Below, piece after piece: positions 13 to 24,179 of a stretch of DNA of 64,000 bases. The notes beneath the pieces are model-generated. The model did no database searches. It worked only from the letters and a program-made list of their open reading frames with translations, and was not told the origin of the DNA. The DNA lies in assembly GCF_005876855.1 (NCBI RefSeq), contig NZ_QLAE01000028.1:1-64000 (forward strand). The letters are read 5' to 3'. Within the stretch, counting starts at the first letter, position 1. Every line of letters starts with the position of its first letter. Made by a program: the position numbers and the translations under genes. Source of the stretch: Stutzerimonas nosocomialis (lineage in GTDB: Bacteria > Pseudomonadota > Gammaproteobacteria > Pseudomonadales > Pseudomonadaceae).

Positions 13-65
13 CCGCCGCGGGCCGAACGCATTCGCATCGGTCCCCGCATGATGGCTACCCGTCC

Positions 66-18307: not shown

Positions 18308-19339
18308 TCAGCGACCGTCCCTGCGCCAGAGCAGGTAGATGAAGTAGAGCCCGCCCAGCAGACCGGTGCCGATGCCGATCGGCAGGTCCTGGGGCGCCAG
18401 CGCGGTACGCGCGAAGGCGTCGACCCAGACGACGAACAGCGCGCCCATCAGCGCGGCTACCGGTATCAGCCGGCGGTGATCGGCCCCCACCAGGCGCCTG
18501 GCCACGTGGGGCACCATCAGCCCGACGAAGCCGATGGCGCCGGTCAGCGAAACGAGCACGGCGGTCAGCGCCGAGGTGGAGACGAAGATGAACAGGCGAA
18601 GCCGCGCGGGACCTATCCCGAGGCTCACGGCGGTCTGCTCGCCGGCCATCAGCGCATTGAGCGGTCGCGCCCAGGCCACCAGCGCCATGCCGGCGGCGGC
18701 GACCGAAACCGCCGGCAGCCAGACCAGCTCCCAGCGCGCCGAGCCCAGCCCGCCCAGCATCCAGAAGATCACCGAGCTCGCCGCATGGTGGTCGCCGGTG
18801 AACAGCAGCAGGCTGGTCAGGGCCGACAGCACGAACGACACGGCCACCCCGGACAGCACCAGGCGCTCGCTATCGAAACGGCCGCCGCGCCGCGCCACCA
18901 GCAACACCACGCCGGTGCTGCCCAGGGCACCGAGAAAGGCGGCCAGCGGCAGGCTCGCCGAGCCGATGAACTCGCCGATGTAGAGCATCACCAGCACCGC
19001 CCCGAGGGCGGCGCCGGAGCTGACGCCGAGCAGGTGCGGGTCCGCCAGCGGGTTGCGCGTGGCCGCCTGCAGCGCCGAGCCGATCAACGCCAGCCCGGCG
19101 CCGACGAACATCCCGAGCAGCACCCGCGGCGCGCGGATCAGCCAGACGATGTGTTCCTGGCCCGCGCTCCAGTCGCCGCCAGGCGCGAGCCCGGCCTTGT
19201 ACGCCAGGATGCCGAGCAGGCGGCCCGGACTCATCTGGGCGGCGCCCAGGCCGAGCGACAACAGGCCCGACAGCACCAGGGCCGCCAGCAACAGGGCGAT
19301 GAACGCCGAGTAGCGAAGCGAGCTGTCCGCCTGCCTCAA
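18308..19339 (-). CDS. FecCD/BtuC-type ABC permease
   Basis: A 343-residue membrane protein with about 10 helices and the family motifs [20 protein letters not shown] and [17 protein letters not shown]. It forms the channel of the B12/metal-responsive operon starting with the TonB receptor. There is no upstream ATG in a sensible place. A TTG at 19339 overlaps the preceding stop (TTGA), has AAGGA 8 bases upstream, and gives a normal N-terminus, so translation very likely starts there. It is the last gene of the uptake operon, 109 bases before the treS start. Confidence 0.85.
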
Positions 19340-20298
19340 CGGGCCTGTCCTTCCACGGGATGCAGCGCGTCGGCCAGGATCTCGATGGCCTCGGCGTTGC
19401 GTACCGAGGGCGTGACCGCGATGTAGGGCAGCACGACGAACCGCTGGTGCCGGATCGCCTCGACATCGGCCAGCGCCGGCTGACGCAGCAGCAGGTCGCG
19501 CTTCTGCTGCCAGGACAGGGGGCCGTAGTCGACGATCACGATCACTTCCGGGTTGCGCTCCACGACGCTTTCCCAACCGACCTGGGTCCAGCTCGCCATG
19601 ACGTCCTCCATGACGTTGCGCCCGCCGGCGGCCTCGATCAGCGCCTGGGGCATGCCCAGGCTGCCGGAGGTCGTCGGGCGATCCTCGCCGCTGTCGTAGA
19701 GGAACACCCGGGGCGTGGCGGAACGGCCTTCGATCCGCGCCTGGACGGCCGACACCCGCTCGCGCATCCGCGTCACCAGGGCTTGCGCCCGTGGCTCGAC
19801 CGCAAAGATCCGGCCGATGGCCTGGAGGTCCCGGTACAGGTCGTCCAGGCTCGCGCGGGCGCGCCGGCCGATCCTCGAGCAGGACTCGCTCAGTTCGTAG
19901 ACCGGGATGCCCAGCGGGGCCAGGGTGGTCGGGGTGACCGGCCCGCCGGCGCGCATGCCGTAGCTCCAGCCGGCAAAGAAGAAATCCGCGCCGGCATCGA
20001 GCAGCGTTTCCAGCGAGGGATAACGGCTGGCCAGCTCGGGCAATCCCTGCAGCGCATCGCGCAGCGCCGGGTCGAGGGTCTTCCAGCCGCTGATGCCGGT
20101 GTAGCCGGCCATGCGATCGGTCAGCCCGAGCGCCACCAGCATGCCGGTCATGTTGATGTCATGGCTGACGGCCCGGGCGGGCGCGCGCTGGAAGATCACC
20201 TCGCGGTCGCAACTGCGCACGGTCAGCGGATAGCCGGAGGCGAAGGCGGGTAAGGACAGCGTGGCGAATACGCAGAGCATGATCCGTTTGAGTGTCAC
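19336..20298 (-). CDS. periplasmic metal-chelate/corrinoid-binding protein (BtuF/FepB class)
   Basis: A 320-residue protein with a Sec signal (MTLKRIMLCVFATLSLPAFA) and a class III binding-protein fold: SHDINMTGMLVALGLTDRM, SLETLLDAGADFFFAGWS, and NPEVIVIVDYG in the second lobe. It begins with GTG at 20298, two bases past the ATPase stop; an ATG at 20280 would cut the positive N-terminus off the signal. It delivers an unknown ligand to the permease that overlaps it by 4 bases. Promoter context (cobalamin riboswitch, Zur-like box) points to a corrinoid or metal chelate rather than an ordinary siderophore. Confidence 0.8.
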   Translation of the reverse strand: MTLKRIMLCVFATLSLPAFASGYPLTVRSCDREVIFQRAPARAVSHDINMTGMLVALGLTDRMAGYTGISGWKTLDPALRDALQGLPELASRYPSLETLLDAGADFFFAGWSYGMRAGGPVTPTTLAPLGIPVYELSESCSRIGRRARASLDDLYRDLQAIGRIFAVEPRAQALVTRMRERVSAVQARIEGRSATPRVFLYDSGEDRPTTSGSLGMPQALIEAAGGRNVMEDVMASWTQVGWESVVERNPEVIVIVDYGPLSWQQKRDLLLRQPALADVEAIRHQRFVVLPYIAVTPSVRNAEAIEILADALHPVEGQAR

Positions 20299-20300
20299 GT

Positions 20301-21080
20301 TCAGGTCATCCAGGTCAGTCGTGGGTAGCCCGCGTGGGGGTGGCGGTCGACGATCACGTCCAGCCCGTAGAGCTGCTGCACCCGCTCGGCAGTGAGCACC
20401 TGATCGGGCGTGCCCTGCGCGACGATGCGCCCGTCCTGGAGGGCGTAGAGCCGGTCGCAGAAGGCCGCGGCCAGGTTGAGGTCATGGAAGCTGGCCAGGG
20501 TGCTCAGCCGCAGGCCGCGCAGCAGCCTCAGCAGCTCAATCTGAAAACGCGGGTCCAGGTGGTTGGTCGGCTCGTCGAGGATCAGCAGGCTCGGCTCCTG
20601 GGCCAGCGCCCGGGCGACCAGGGCGCGCTGCTTCTCGCCGCCCGACAGCTGCTCGAAGACACGCTGGCGCAGCGGCTCCATCCCCACCGCCTGCAACGCG
20701 CGCGTCACCAGCGCCTCGTCGCCCGGCCCGTCGCCCTCGAAGAGGCCCTTGTGTGGGATGCGCCCCAGACGCACGACATCCTCCACGGTAAGCCCGAACT
20801 CCTGGGGAAACTCCTGCAGGACGACGGCGATACGTTGCGCCGACCATTTTTCGGAGACGCGCTCCAGGTCCTGAGCATCGAGCCGCACCCCGCCGCGCTG
20901 CGGCCTGTTGAAGCGGTAGGCGCAGCGCAGCACGCTGGTCTTGCCGCTGCCGTTGGGTCCGATCAGTCCGACGAACTCGCCGGGCCGGACCGACAGCTCG
21001 ATGGCGTCGATCAGCCACGGCGCCTCGCGCCTCGCTTCGCGGGGCGACCAGCTGACGTCTCGCAGGTGCAACGATGACAT
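20301..21080 (-). CDS. ABC transporter ATPase of the B12/metal-responsive uptake operon
   Basis: A 259-residue ATPase with Walker A GPNGSGKTS, signature LSGGEKQRALVARALAQ, Walker B LLILDEPTNHLD and H-loop ASFHDLN. It belongs to the FepC/BtuD type for TonB-linked importers. AGGAG lies 8 bases before the ATG at 21080. It follows the receptor gene by 46 bases and precedes the binding-protein gene by 2, so all four are probably one transcript. Confidence 0.86.
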   Translation of the reverse strand: MSSLHLRDVSWSPREARREAPWLIDAIELSVRPGEFVGLIGPNGSGKTSVLRCAYRFNRPQRGGVRLDAQDLERVSEKWSAQRIAVVLQEFPQEFGLTVEDVVRLGRIPHKGLFEGDGPGDEALVTRALQAVGMEPLRQRVFEQLSGGEKQRALVARALAQEPSLLILDEPTNHLDPRFQIELLRLLRGLRLSTLASFHDLNLAAAFCDRLYALQDGRIVAQGTPDQVLTAERVQQLYGLDVIVDRHPHAGYPRLTWMT

Positions 21081-21126: not shown

Positions 21127-23277
21127 TCAGAAGCGGTAATCGGCGGTGACCAGGAAGGACCTCGGCTGGCCCAGCAGCCATTGCTCGCCGCTGCCGTAGT
21201 AGGTGTTCGCGTAACGCCGGTCGAGCAGGTTGTAGGCTTCGAAGCCGAGGCGAATGTCGCGGGTGGCGTCCCAGCCCAGGTTGGCGTCGAGCACCGTATA
21301 GCCGGGCAGCGCACCGAGGTTGGCGGTGTCCGTGTAGCGTTTGTCGACGTAACGCACCCCTAGCCCGGCATCCAGCTGCGGGCCGATCCGCTTGCTGACC
21401 CAGAGATTGGCCGTCCTGCGCGGCACGCCGACCGGCGTGTTGCCATCGCGCGAGACCAGCGCGCCGCCGACCGCCTCATTGAAGTCGTCGTATTCGGCGC
21501 GCAGCAGCGAGGCGTTGGCCGACAGCCGCCAGCCATGAGCCAGGGCCAGCTCGAGCGTGGCCTCCAGGCCCTCGGACGACTGCTGCCCGACCTGCTGGGT
21601 GGGCTCGTTGGGCGCGGTTCGGCTCAACAGTCTTTTCTTGGTGATCTGGAAGGCGGCGAGCGTCCAGTGCCCGCGTTCCTGCCAGAAGCTCTGCTTGAGG
21701 CCGAACTCGGTCTGCCGGGCACGGGTGAGCGTCATCTGCTGCTGGCTGGGCGTCAGCGAGATGAGGTTGTTGACGCCGTCCTGGCTGGTCGCATGCTGTC
21801 CGTAGAGGGACAGTTCGTCCGTCACGTCGAACACCAGTCCGGCGCGCCAGTTGCCACCGCTCAGGCTGCGGCCGCTGCGCGTGCCGGCGCGCTCGTCGTC
21901 GCGGTCGATGTGGTTCTGGTCGCGGCGGACACCGCTGACCAGGGTCCAGCGCTCGGAGAGCCGGGTCGCGTTTTCGGCGAACAGGGCGAAGGTCCGCGTA
22001 CGGCTGCGGTTGTTCGGGGCATAGGGCGAGGCGCTCTGGTAGTAGCCGTCGGCCGGATTCCAGGGGTCGATGTAGTCGCCGCCGATATCGGTATAGGGCG
22101 CATTGTTGTCGACGCCGAAGCGGATCCGGTTGTACTCGGTACCGACCACGGTCTTGCTGGAGAGGCCGAACAGGCCATGCTCGAAGGTGAAGCTCTGGCG
22201 CGCCCCGAGCTGCTCCTGGTTGTGGCGGATTTCCAGATAATCCCCACGCAGCAACTGCCCGCGACCTTCATCCCAGCGGTAGGCCTCGGCGTTGCGCCAG
22301 TGCCGCCGGCTCCTGACGACGTAGAGCTGGTTGCTGGCGCTGACGGTGTCGCTCAGGTTCCAGTCGGTGTCGAGCCGAGTCCACTCGTCGCGGTAGTGCT
22401 GCACGGCGTCGCGGATGTTGTAGTTCTTTTCCTCCAGGCTGCCGCGCAACTGTCCGCCGATCCGGGGCGTGCCGAAGTAGCCGGCCGGCTCGCTGTCGCC
22501 GCGCTCGTGCGCCAGGGTGACGCTCAGGTCGTCGCTGGGCTGCCAGCGCAGCGCCGCGCTCAGGGCGTGGCTGTTCGAGTCGCCGCGATCGACCCAGCCG
22601 TTGCTGGCCTGGCGGTTGAGAGTCAGCCGATAGCTGAAGGTCTCGGACAGCGAGCCGCCACTGTCCAGGGCCTGCTGCTGGCGATCGTCCGAGCCGTAAC
22701 CGACCCGGGCCCGGTTGCGGATGTCACCCTCGAACGGCTTCTTCGGCACGATGTTCACCGTCGCGCCCGTGGCCCCTTCGCCGTACAGCACCGAGGCCGG
22801 CCCGCGGATCACTTCGATGCGTTCCACCATCCAGGTATCGACCGGAAAGGTCTGGGTGCCGGCGCCGGTGTACAGGCGGTTGCCGTCGAACAGCGTCATC
22901 ACCGACGTGTGGCCCGTGAAGCCGCGGGCCGACAGCGCCGTGTTGCCATTGCCCGGGTTGGCGATCGAGGTGATGCCAGGGCTTCGGGTGACGGCGTCCT
23001 GCACCGACAGGTTGCTGCGCTCGGAAACGGCGCGCTCGTCGAGCGTGCTGGTGCTCGCTGGCGTCTGCCGTGCCGACAGGTTGAGGCGCGAGCCGGTGCG
23101 GGTCGGGGCGCTCAGCGACTCCCCCTGGCCGGCCTCGTGGGTGACGGCCATCGACGGTAGTGTCAGGGGAGGCGGATCGTCGCCCTCCGCGGCGATGGAA
23201 CTCGAAGGCAGTACGATCAATGCGAAGACGCCGAACAGCGTCAGCCGTTGCATTGCAGAAAAGGAGATGCGGGTCAT
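21127..23277 (-). CDS. TonB-dependent outer-membrane receptor under cobalamin riboswitch
   Basis: A 716-residue protein with a signal peptide, an N-terminal plug (QDAVTRSPGITSIANPGNGN, SARGFTG, RIEVIRGPASVLYGEGATGA) and a 22-strand-type barrel ending in the aromatic C-terminus VTADYRF. Its size and plug resemble siderophore receptors of the FhuE/FoxA kind more than the smaller BtuB. It is the first gene behind the riboswitch. Operon order (receptor, ATPase, binding protein, permease) matches what I remember as PA2911-PA2914 of P. aeruginosa, reported to respond to zinc starvation. The start at 23277 gives a proper signal; the ribosome-binding site is weak. Confidence 0.85.
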   Translation of the reverse strand: MTRISFSAMQRLTLFGVFALIVLPSSSIAAEGDDPPPLTLPSMAVTHEAGQGESLSAPTRTGSRLNLSARQTPASTSTLDERAVSERSNLSVQDAVTRSPGITSIANPGNGNTALSARGFTGHTSVMTLFDGNRLYTGAGTQTFPVDTWMVERIEVIRGPASVLYGEGATGATVNIVPKKPFEGDIRNRARVGYGSDDRQQQALDSGGSLSETFSYRLTLNRQASNGWVDRGDSNSHALSAALRWQPSDDLSVTLAHERGDSEPAGYFGTPRIGGQLRGSLEEKNYNIRDAVQHYRDEWTRLDTDWNLSDTVSASNQLYVVRSRRHWRNAEAYRWDEGRGQLLRGDYLEIRHNQEQLGARQSFTFEHGLFGLSSKTVVGTEYNRIRFGVDNNAPYTDIGGDYIDPWNPADGYYQSASPYAPNNRSRTRTFALFAENATRLSERWTLVSGVRRDQNHIDRDDERAGTRSGRSLSGGNWRAGLVFDVTDELSLYGQHATSQDGVNNLISLTPSQQQMTLTRARQTEFGLKQSFWQERGHWTLAAFQITKKRLLSRTAPNEPTQQVGQQSSEGLEATLELALAHGWRLSANASLLRAEYDDFNEAVGGALVSRDGNTPVGVPRRTANLWVSKRIGPQLDAGLGVRYVDKRYTDTANLGALPGYTVLDANLGWDATRDIRLGFEAYNLLDRRYANTYYGSGEQWLLGQPRSFLVTADYRF

Positions 23278-23398
23278 GTCATTCCACTTGAAAGAAGAAG
23301 AACCAAGGCCCGGAGGGAAACACGCATGAGGAGTCGCGGACGCCAAGCGCCCGAAAACCGGCCTGCGCCCGCCCACCGCGGGTTGCCAATCGAACCTT

Positions 23399-23572
23399 CA
23401 GGCCGGTCTCCGGGCTTGCGAGGGTCATGAAGCCATTCACCTTCCCATGCCGAGGCACAGTGGTCCTTCGAATGCTTCGCTCGCTTACCGTTGCGGGGGC
23501 AGCGCCGGACTGATCATCTGGGATGACGCACCGGCTTCCCGTTTAACCCCATGCCGTGCATGGGACACCTGA
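23399..23572 (-). ncRNA. cobalamin (B12) riboswitch
   Basis: Read on the minus strand, the leader shows GGTG near 23567, GGGAAGCCGGTG, CCGGCGCTGCCCCCGCAACG, GTAAGC, CCACTGTGCC, and closing AAGCCCGGAGACCGGCC. These are the conserved blocks of the cobalamin aptamer in the right order, including the B12-box-like part. It lies about 120 bases before the receptor start codon. Bound adenosylcobalamin should lower expression of the receptor operon. Confidence 0.95.
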
Positions 23573-23711
23573 AGTGGTGTGCATCAAAACAGAGCCACGG
23601 AGCGACGGCAAGCCTGACGTGCCACTGCCTTGCCGCCACGCCCGTCGCTGCCACCTGCGCCTGCCCGAAGCCCGCACTGCGCTTTCCAGTACCGTCTGGA
23701 CCTGACTAAGT

Positions 23712-23728
23712 ATGTTATAACATAACAT
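23712..23728. promoter_or_regulatory. Zur-box-like operator upstream of the riboswitch
   Basis: ATGTTATAACATAACAT has the perfect 7-bp dyad ATGTTAT/ATAACAT with a 3-base spacer. The gammaproteobacterial Zur consensus ATGTTATAnTATAACAT has the same arms and spacing; only one specified base differs. It is an isolated AT-rich patch in GC-rich DNA. It lies about 140 bases upstream of the riboswitch, where the receptor operon promoter should be, and 140 bases before the divergent DUF883 gene. Confidence 0.7.
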
Positions 23729-23867
23729 ATCAGGTCGACAGCAAGCGCCAAGGCATCTCCCGGCGGGCCGGTCCGGTGAATCCCGTCGGCGGTGCGTCAC
23801 TCATCGCAACGTCTGTCCAAACCCACGGTCCAACGCTGACATTTACAAGCAAAGGGGAGGACTGACC

Positions 23868-24179
23868 ATGTCCCTGTTCGCACGCAAGTCGACCACCCGT
23901 GAAGACATCGAGCACGAGATCCAGAGCCTGATGAGTGCGCTGGACGAGCTCAAGCACAGCGCCGGCCGCGACTCGCGCCACCGCCTCGCTTCGCTGCGCT
24001 CGCGCGCCGAATCGCTGTGGAACGACGTCCACCTGGACGAGCATTACGCCGACCTCTCGCGCAAGACCCGCGAAGCCAGCCGCCTGGCCAAGGACTGCGC
24101 CCGCGAACATCCCCTTTCGACCCTGGCCCTGGCCGCCGGCGCCTGCGCGCTGATCGGCTACCTGGTCACTCGCCGCTGA
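23868..24179 (+). CDS. DUF883/ElaB-YqjD family small membrane protein
   Basis: A 103-residue protein: a charged helical N-terminus (TTREDIEHEIQSLMSALDEL onward) with coiled-coil character, then one C-terminal membrane helix (LSTLALAAGACALIGYLV) ending in TRR. E. coli relatives ElaB and YqjD are tail-anchored inner-membrane proteins that associate with ribosomes in stationary phase. A strong GGGGAGG ribosome-binding site precedes the ATG. It stands 16 bases before the next gene. Confidence 0.75.
   Translation: MSLFARKSTTREDIEHEIQSLMSALDELKHSAGRDSRHRLASLRSRAESLWNDVHLDEHYADLSRKTREASRLAKDCAREHPLSTLALAAGACALIGYLVTRR

Follow-up and report, generated by a model that had tools for sequence, protein, structure and literature searches.

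Zur boxes recur in front of a cobalamin (B12)-linked transporter operon across the Pseudomonadaceae, which is the most interesting result of this analysis. The operon under study lies in a 64,000-nucleotide stretch of Stutzerimonas nosocomialis (contig NZ_QLAE01000028.1, positions 1 to 64,000; here ‘the window’ refers to this whole stretch). It encodes a TonB-dependent receptor and an ATP-binding cassette (ABC) importer of the type known as PA2911-PA2914 in Pseudomonas aeruginosa, and it is preceded by a predicted operator for the zinc regulator Zur, followed by a B12 riboswitch. The parts are ordinary, but their arrangement is unusual and instructive. Computation establishes which elements are present, in what order they stand, and how they are conserved and vary among relatives. 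On balance, we think that the operon is a cobalt-chelate importer, in which a promoter P2 and a zinc-repressed promoter P1 are together under a B12 veto.

We conceived that the outer-membrane receptor and the ABC importer would take up a chelated cobalt species. The original control would be the B12 riboswitch with its own promoter P2; under ample cobalamin, the aptamer would fold and the operon would be shut, as in other cobalt-supply genes. The Zur operator would have been added upstream later, and zinc starvation would bring extra transcription from P1 at the dyad. Transcripts from P1 would still cross the riboswitch; zinc shortage would boost the operon, and B12 sufficiency would block it. 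Cobalt brought in this way would go into B12 synthesis and, when zinc is scarce, could stand in for zinc in enzymes. P1 itself, the activity of P2, the way the riboswitch works, the nature of the ligand and every function assigned in the window's organism are inferred.

Predicted operator, riboswitch and candidate promoter in the leader

An earlier note on the window had pointed to a Zur-like dyad differing from consensus at one base, and this is borne out. When the dyad is scored against ATGTTATANTATAACAT, which we take to be the gammaproteobacterial Zur consensus, it has one mismatch. It is the best among six sites found at up to three mismatches in the 4.76 Mb genome, each on both strands, while the reversed control pattern gives none. 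As a predicted site, it thus matches the operator consensus above chance. Its arms reach 8 bp each when extended to 23711 and 23729, and no other perfect 8+3+8 dyad with six or more A/T per arm occurs in the window. The other five genome sites adjoin open reading frames for a CobW/COG0523 GTPase (one site) and TonB-dependent receptors (four sites). In S. azotifigens, the closest named relative (receptor 87% identical), the orthologue has a dyad core with the same base at 16 of 17 positions, and the adjacent sequence has diverged. The window's genome has two Fur-family genes, for one of which Zur is the best NCBIfam match (119.6 bits, under the model cut-off of 167). This Zur-like gene adjoins an ABC gene resembling znuC by eye and is divergent from znuA (272.2 bits, cut-off 268).

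The B12 aptamer of the same note also stands, as the match covers the whole RF00174 model far above its gathering threshold of 31.5 bits (Table 1); cobalamin binding is predicted. Its distance from the dyad, given before as about 140 bases, is 124 bases. Compared with RF00174 riboswitches generally, what sets this full-length aptamer apart is the zinc-regulator site in front of it. The riboswitch probably acts through the 17-bp alternative helix of its B12 box with 23365-23349, by transcription or translation. The proposal is based on complementarity because leader RNA folds are not stabler than shuffles (z of 0.38 for the window leader). Pairing of this type over at least 12 bp occurs in 22 of 65 riboswitch loci among the relatives described below, as against 13 of 1300 shuffles, and in 11 of the 65 it spans 8 bp or less. 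Elsewhere, two divergent cobalamin riboswitches lie ~59 bases apart at G000:C37:15459-15936, one before cobW and the other facing a tetrapyrrole methylase gene. Loci L044, L045, L047 and L052 have a second, partial cobalamin riboswitch match, downstream of the receptor gene and reaching the locus end.

A promoter-like pair, TTG(A/C)CN-16..18-NNNNAT, is found at most 60 bases before the aptamer in 61 of the 65 riboswitch loci, compared with 85 of 13,000 shuffles, and 57 loci have it with a spacing of 17 at the same place. Where the window has candidate P2, homologues carry TTGACN-17-TCAGAT or TCATAT. In S. azotifigens (L014), the position, the spacing and both hexamers are retained although the sequence between them has diverged. 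A consensus scan of 23250-23880 found no sigma-70 promoter, P2 included, so the case for P2 is one of conservation. Because P2 lies downstream of the dyad, Zur bound at the dyad should not occlude it, and low zinc need not be required. With P2 unobstructed, two promoters are expected to feed one riboswitch. The earlier note had held that a start downstream of the dyad would make the dyad irrelevant; candidate P2 fits such a start, but the dyad would keep its role at P1.

Table 1 Features of the operon and its leader in the window
Feature	Position	Strand	Basis
Zur-type operator dyad ATGTTAT-AAC-ATAACAT, predicted	23711-23729, 17-bp core 23712-23728	.	match to ATGTTATANTATAACAT
Candidate promoter P2, TTGCCG-17-TTTGAT	23583-23611	minus	conserved place and spacing; start expected near aptamer 5′ edge
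Cobalamin riboswitch aptamer RF00174	23384-23587	minus	117.4 bits, E 8.9e-29, full length (1-189 of 189)
Putative expression platform	23349-23415	minus	B12-box strand 23415-23399 pairs over 17 bp with 23365-23349, alternative to aptamer
TonB-dependent receptor, 716 aa, PA2911 orthologue	21127-23277	minus	PF00593 and PF07715
ABC transporter ATPase	20301-21080	minus	PF00005
Periplasmic binding protein (Peripla_BP_2)	19336-20298	minus	PF01497
FecCD/BtuC-type permease	18308-19339	minus	PF01032, 305 bits

Zur boxes and riboswitches across the Pseudomonadaceae

The receptor was searched for in 398 Pseudomonadaceae genomes, and 103 match at E 1e-150 or better, a threshold at which diverged orthologues are missed. 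Among the 103 upstream regions, all examined, 47 have only a riboswitch and 35 only a Zur box. Both elements are present in the order riboswitch, Zur box, receptor at 15 loci (14 by rule, and L097, with two mismatches, assigned by hand), and with the Zur box before the riboswitch at three, namely the window, the S. azotifigens-like G103 and the P. aeruginosa-like G126. Two loci have neither element, both within the Zur-only clade, where L078 has a Zur-like site only at two mismatches and L095 none at three. The remaining locus, L028, ends at a contig edge and is unreadable. The layout of the window is therefore rare, at 3 of 53 Zur-bearing loci. Outside upstream regions, the Zur pattern occurs 0 times at up to one mismatch and 19 times at up to two in 741,095 bases. 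The Rfam covariance model finds an aptamer before the receptor gene in every one of the 65 loci scored positive and in none of 37 scored negative.

On FastTree and IQ-TREE receptor trees, the Zur state changes 8 and 9 times, respectively, and the riboswitch state twice on each. The outgroup Variovorax locus L023 carries a riboswitch (81.7 bits). With the riboswitch assumed ancestral, the FastTree tree has six Zur-box groups: the Zur-only clade, L107, the main riboswitch-then-Zur clade, L042, L053, and the window with L026. The L042 leader resembles the L071 leader although the two receptors lie far apart. Promoter DNA may have been exchanged, which would inflate the count of Zur gains; the origins would then be fewer. 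Among 360 class-level genomes searched at E 1e-100, only two distant receptors turned up besides the window's, not enough to root the tree more deeply. It is a serious possibility, a little short of an even chance, that a cobalt-chelate importer ancestrally run by the riboswitch was captured by Zur about five to six separate times, as a booster before the riboswitch, a bypass behind it, or a replacement of it.

At the 15 riboswitch-then-Zur loci (L042, L062, L065, L071-L073, L075, L077, L079, L082, L083, L086, L092, L094 and L097), transcription starting at the Zur box would skip the riboswitch, and bound Zur might also block read-through transcripts. Because the riboswitch would be bypassed in these 15 loci and is lost in the 35 Zur-only loci, zinc can act without B12 permission in 50 of the 53 Zur-bearing loci. 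In all 15, the receptor has an in-frame N-terminal extension that starts at an ATG after the riboswitch; the extension contains the Zur dyad, which there encodes a conserved MLCYN. Riboswitch transcripts and Zur transcripts may yield receptors with different N-termini at these loci.

Kinship with PA2911-PA2914

The order receptor, ATPase, binding protein, permease and the kinship with the zinc-starvation-induced PA2911-PA2914, both of which the earlier note had proposed, proved right. The genes are assigned by Pfam in this order, and the receptor is orthologous to that of G126 (61-64% identical), so the window operon belongs to the PA2911-PA2914 type. The G126 locus, L053, has a Zur box, then a riboswitch, then the receptor, as in the window. 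On the other hand, the G126 operon adjoins cob genes and its genome has a pyochelin-type reductase gene, neither of which was found in the window's genome.

Four primers published for PA14 PA2911 match L053 at up to two mismatches, two of them exactly, and one of the four, matching at 18 of 20 bases, falls inside the L053 aptamer (113 bits). The Zur box of L053 is 371 bases upstream, and a review, in the part available, places the Zur box >300 bp upstream of the PA2911 ATG. Because the PA14 primer falls in the L053 aptamer, PA2911 itself very probably carries a riboswitch between the Zur box and the start. The primer has no match at up to one mismatch in 25 genomes of G126's genus; therefore, what is said here of P. 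aeruginosa is based on its relative G126 and on primer positions.

According to available parts of the published work, zinc represses PA2911, mutation of znuA induces it, and its promoter is bound by Zur in vitro (PMC11481552, PMC4542158, PMC8531726). In the znuA mutant, the induction is 8.1-fold for PA2911, as against 45-172-fold for the strong Zur targets PA4063, PA4837, PA1922 and PA0781, and hmtA is induced more weakly still, 5.6-fold (excerpts of PMC4542158). The 8.1-fold response would fit a basal promoter together with a riboswitch damping the signal. Cobalt content is reported to be down in a PA2914 mutant and up in a PA4065 mutant, and pyochelin-cobalt is proposed for P. aeruginosa (excerpts of PMC11481552). 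‘Riboswitch’ and ‘PA2911’ were not found together in the open-access literature as indexed, ‘riboswitch’ being absent from the main text of the PA2911 papers searched. No report of a zinc site combined with a riboswitch was found in the titles and abstract beginnings of that literature. Riboswitches near iron-type ABC genes are already known, as an excerpt of a P. syringae paper has a cobalamin riboswitch before an iron-type ABC operon.

Ligand and rival explanations

Chelated cobalt is the favoured ligand, as suggested by gene content and receptor type. CobH/CbiC is present in 100 of 103 receptor genomes, compared with 170 of 295 others (counted by eye), and lies at most 9 kb from the receptor in 24 of 46 receptor genomes, the 46 being the best-matching of 100 places and many of them from one clade. 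In Variovorax, a riboswitch, a CrtA-like receptor, a PepSY_TM protein, CbiM and CobW follow one another on one strand (L023:5395-12032); the series ends in a truncated, CobN-like open reading frame at the contig end (by eye; no Pfam match), and the locus yielded no relative of the window's ABC genes. In the window's genome, CbiM and CobW reading frames stand beside other B12 riboswitches, and another TonB receptor, L003, is also riboswitch-linked.

The window receptor scores over the cut-off of the siderophore-receptor subfamily TIGR01783. It falls far below the BtuB models of NCBIfam (98.6 against a cut-off of 599.7 for TIGR01779, and 38.9 against 836 for the BtuB model), and no chain named BtuB is among its 26 solved-structure matches at E 1e-10. 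The earlier note had expected a ligand linking zinc or cobalt with corrinoids; the link holds and a cobalt metallophore fits it best, while B12 itself fits least, given these scores.

The closest solved chain is CrtA 9rvq (292.8 bits), a receptor for chelated copper. According to excerpts of PMC12914433, a PepSY_TM gene stands beside the receptor at >75% of crtA loci, and P. aeruginosa CrtA is PA0434. The binding-site residues E337 and H358 of the copper-chelate receptors (Bordetella pertussis BfrG, 9rvq/9rvx) align to E331 and H352 in the window receptor, kept in 104 and 99 of 104 rows, respectively. CrtA Q356 and W265 are not kept. In Variovorax L023, the receptor is followed by a PepSY_TM gene, as crtA is, whereas the window operon has a FecCD-type ABC importer instead, which makes its operon a relative rather than a member of the CrtA systems. 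Its leader has B12 and zinc elements; none for copper was looked for. In five riboswitch-only receptors (L105, L117, L120, L122 and L126), Q replaces the otherwise conserved H352. By eye, the upstream neighbour of the receptor looks like a PepSY_TM protein in the Zur-only L063, L070, L090 and L112. Among the 83 loci with downstream sequence (10 from named genomes, some duplicating other loci), ABC genes are missing in 13, one of which is at a contig end. In two genomes the operon is flanked by a protein of ~240 aa that has no Pfam match over cut-off (L022:4662-5369 and L156:2710-3432); the two proteins look alike by eye.

A comparable division of control is known from CobW and COG0523 proteins, one family split between B12-riboswitch and Zur control on different subgroups (PMC2770081, in part). 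Here, the two controls are found among orthologues, and in some cases together on one operon.

Pyochelin was rejected as a general self-made ligand, because the thiazolinyl imide reductase model TIGR01761 (pyochelin/yersiniabactin type) is over its cut-off in 17 of 398 genomes, 10 of 103 with the receptor, and not in the window's genome. Piracy of pyochelin made by others would agree with these counts.

Several observations weigh against a cobalt-chelate importer with two promoters. The CobH linkage is concentrated in one part of the tree, the 46 places are not a random sample, and the window operon is not beside cob genes. By the same TIGR01761 marker, most receptor species do not make pyochelin, the published partner. 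Neither of the remote relatives L130 and L131 shows a riboswitch, which leaves L023 as the one outgroup to speak for its ancestry. As for promoters, the scan saw no consensus P1 at the dyad, the -35 hexamer of the window's P2 is TTGCCG, weakened relative to the usual TTGACN, and a P2-like pair is missing under the rule in 4 of the 65 riboswitch loci. The start of a divergent gene, at 23868, is ~140 bases from the dyad, which could serve that gene. Finally, G088, G201 and G243, of the window's genus, lack CobH and CobK yet keep a riboswitch-controlled receptor. Without these two genes, cobalt for corrin synthesis has no obvious use in the three genomes, which point partly to a corrinoid. Next to its operon, G088 has CobN, CobW and a ChlI-type AAA gene. 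CobN and CobW are beside the operon in L154 (G088; Pfam) and L155 (G243; by eye), a cobalt chelatase accompanied by none of the tested ring-synthesis genes, and L155 also has salvage genes such as CobU and CobD.

A corrinoid ligand (cobinamide, pseudo-B12 or B12), with zinc control reflecting zinc sparing by B12-dependent enzymes, would suit these three genomes, the riboswitch itself and the cob-gene linkage in part of the family, and the permease resembles BtuC while the binding protein weakly resembles BtuF. However, the receptor is of the siderophore type rather than BtuB, L003 is available as another riboswitch-linked receptor, and in Variovorax the receptor is followed by CbiM, with no relative of the window's ABC genes found; we consider a corrinoid unlikely. 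A zinc-chelate importer with an incidental or vestigial riboswitch is improbable, given that the riboswitch is in 65 of 103 loci with only two changes on the tree, that 47 loci have it with no Zur box, and that cob genes are associated.

The AND-like gate of the earlier note, in which only Zur-controlled transcription enters the operon and transcripts are made only when zinc and B12 are both short, draws on the position of the dyad before the aptamer, its closeness to consensus, the weak -35 of P2 and the empty promoter scan. The strict form is not supported and appears distinctly unlikely, as P2-like pairs are so widespread and the window's own lies downstream of the dyad, with place, spacing and hexamers kept in S. 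azotifigens despite the diverged sequence between. Besides, Zur-site transcripts would need no riboswitch in 50 of the 53 Zur-bearing loci (35 lacking one, 15 with it upstream), so co-starvation is not what the transporter family generally responds to. Instead, zinc shortage probably adds transcription, and B12 vetoes all of it. It is very improbable that Zur does not bind the dyad or that the dyad is part of the divergent gene's control. The dyad is roughly equidistant from the 23868 start and the aptamer, and no consensus promoter was seen at the dyad, but in the P. aeruginosa-like genome the next upstream gene is CobK, on the same strand, which leaves the receptor operon as the only one that its Zur box can serve. 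Moreover, Zur shifts the PA2911 promoter in vitro, and 35 orthologues have a Zur box directly before the receptor.

If a cobalt-chelate importer has indeed been captured by Zur repeatedly, cobalt-for-zinc substitution would be a recurrent, selected response across the Pseudomonadaceae rather than a speciality of P. aeruginosa, and zinc starvation and B12 synthesis would draw, in competition, on one supply of imported cobalt. PA2911-PA2914 is being actively studied as a zinc-starvation system whose ligand is debated, and the B12 riboswitch is unmentioned in the main text of the PA2911 papers searched. B12-rich media or strains could mute the operon and confuse zinc-starvation experiments. The natural wiring variants (riboswitch only, Zur only, Zur before, Zur after) allow a direct test of a deliberate cobalt-for-zinc swap. 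With the Zur site coming and going in several positions among relatives, the family illustrates how zinc starvation may come to enlist a B12-linked transporter.
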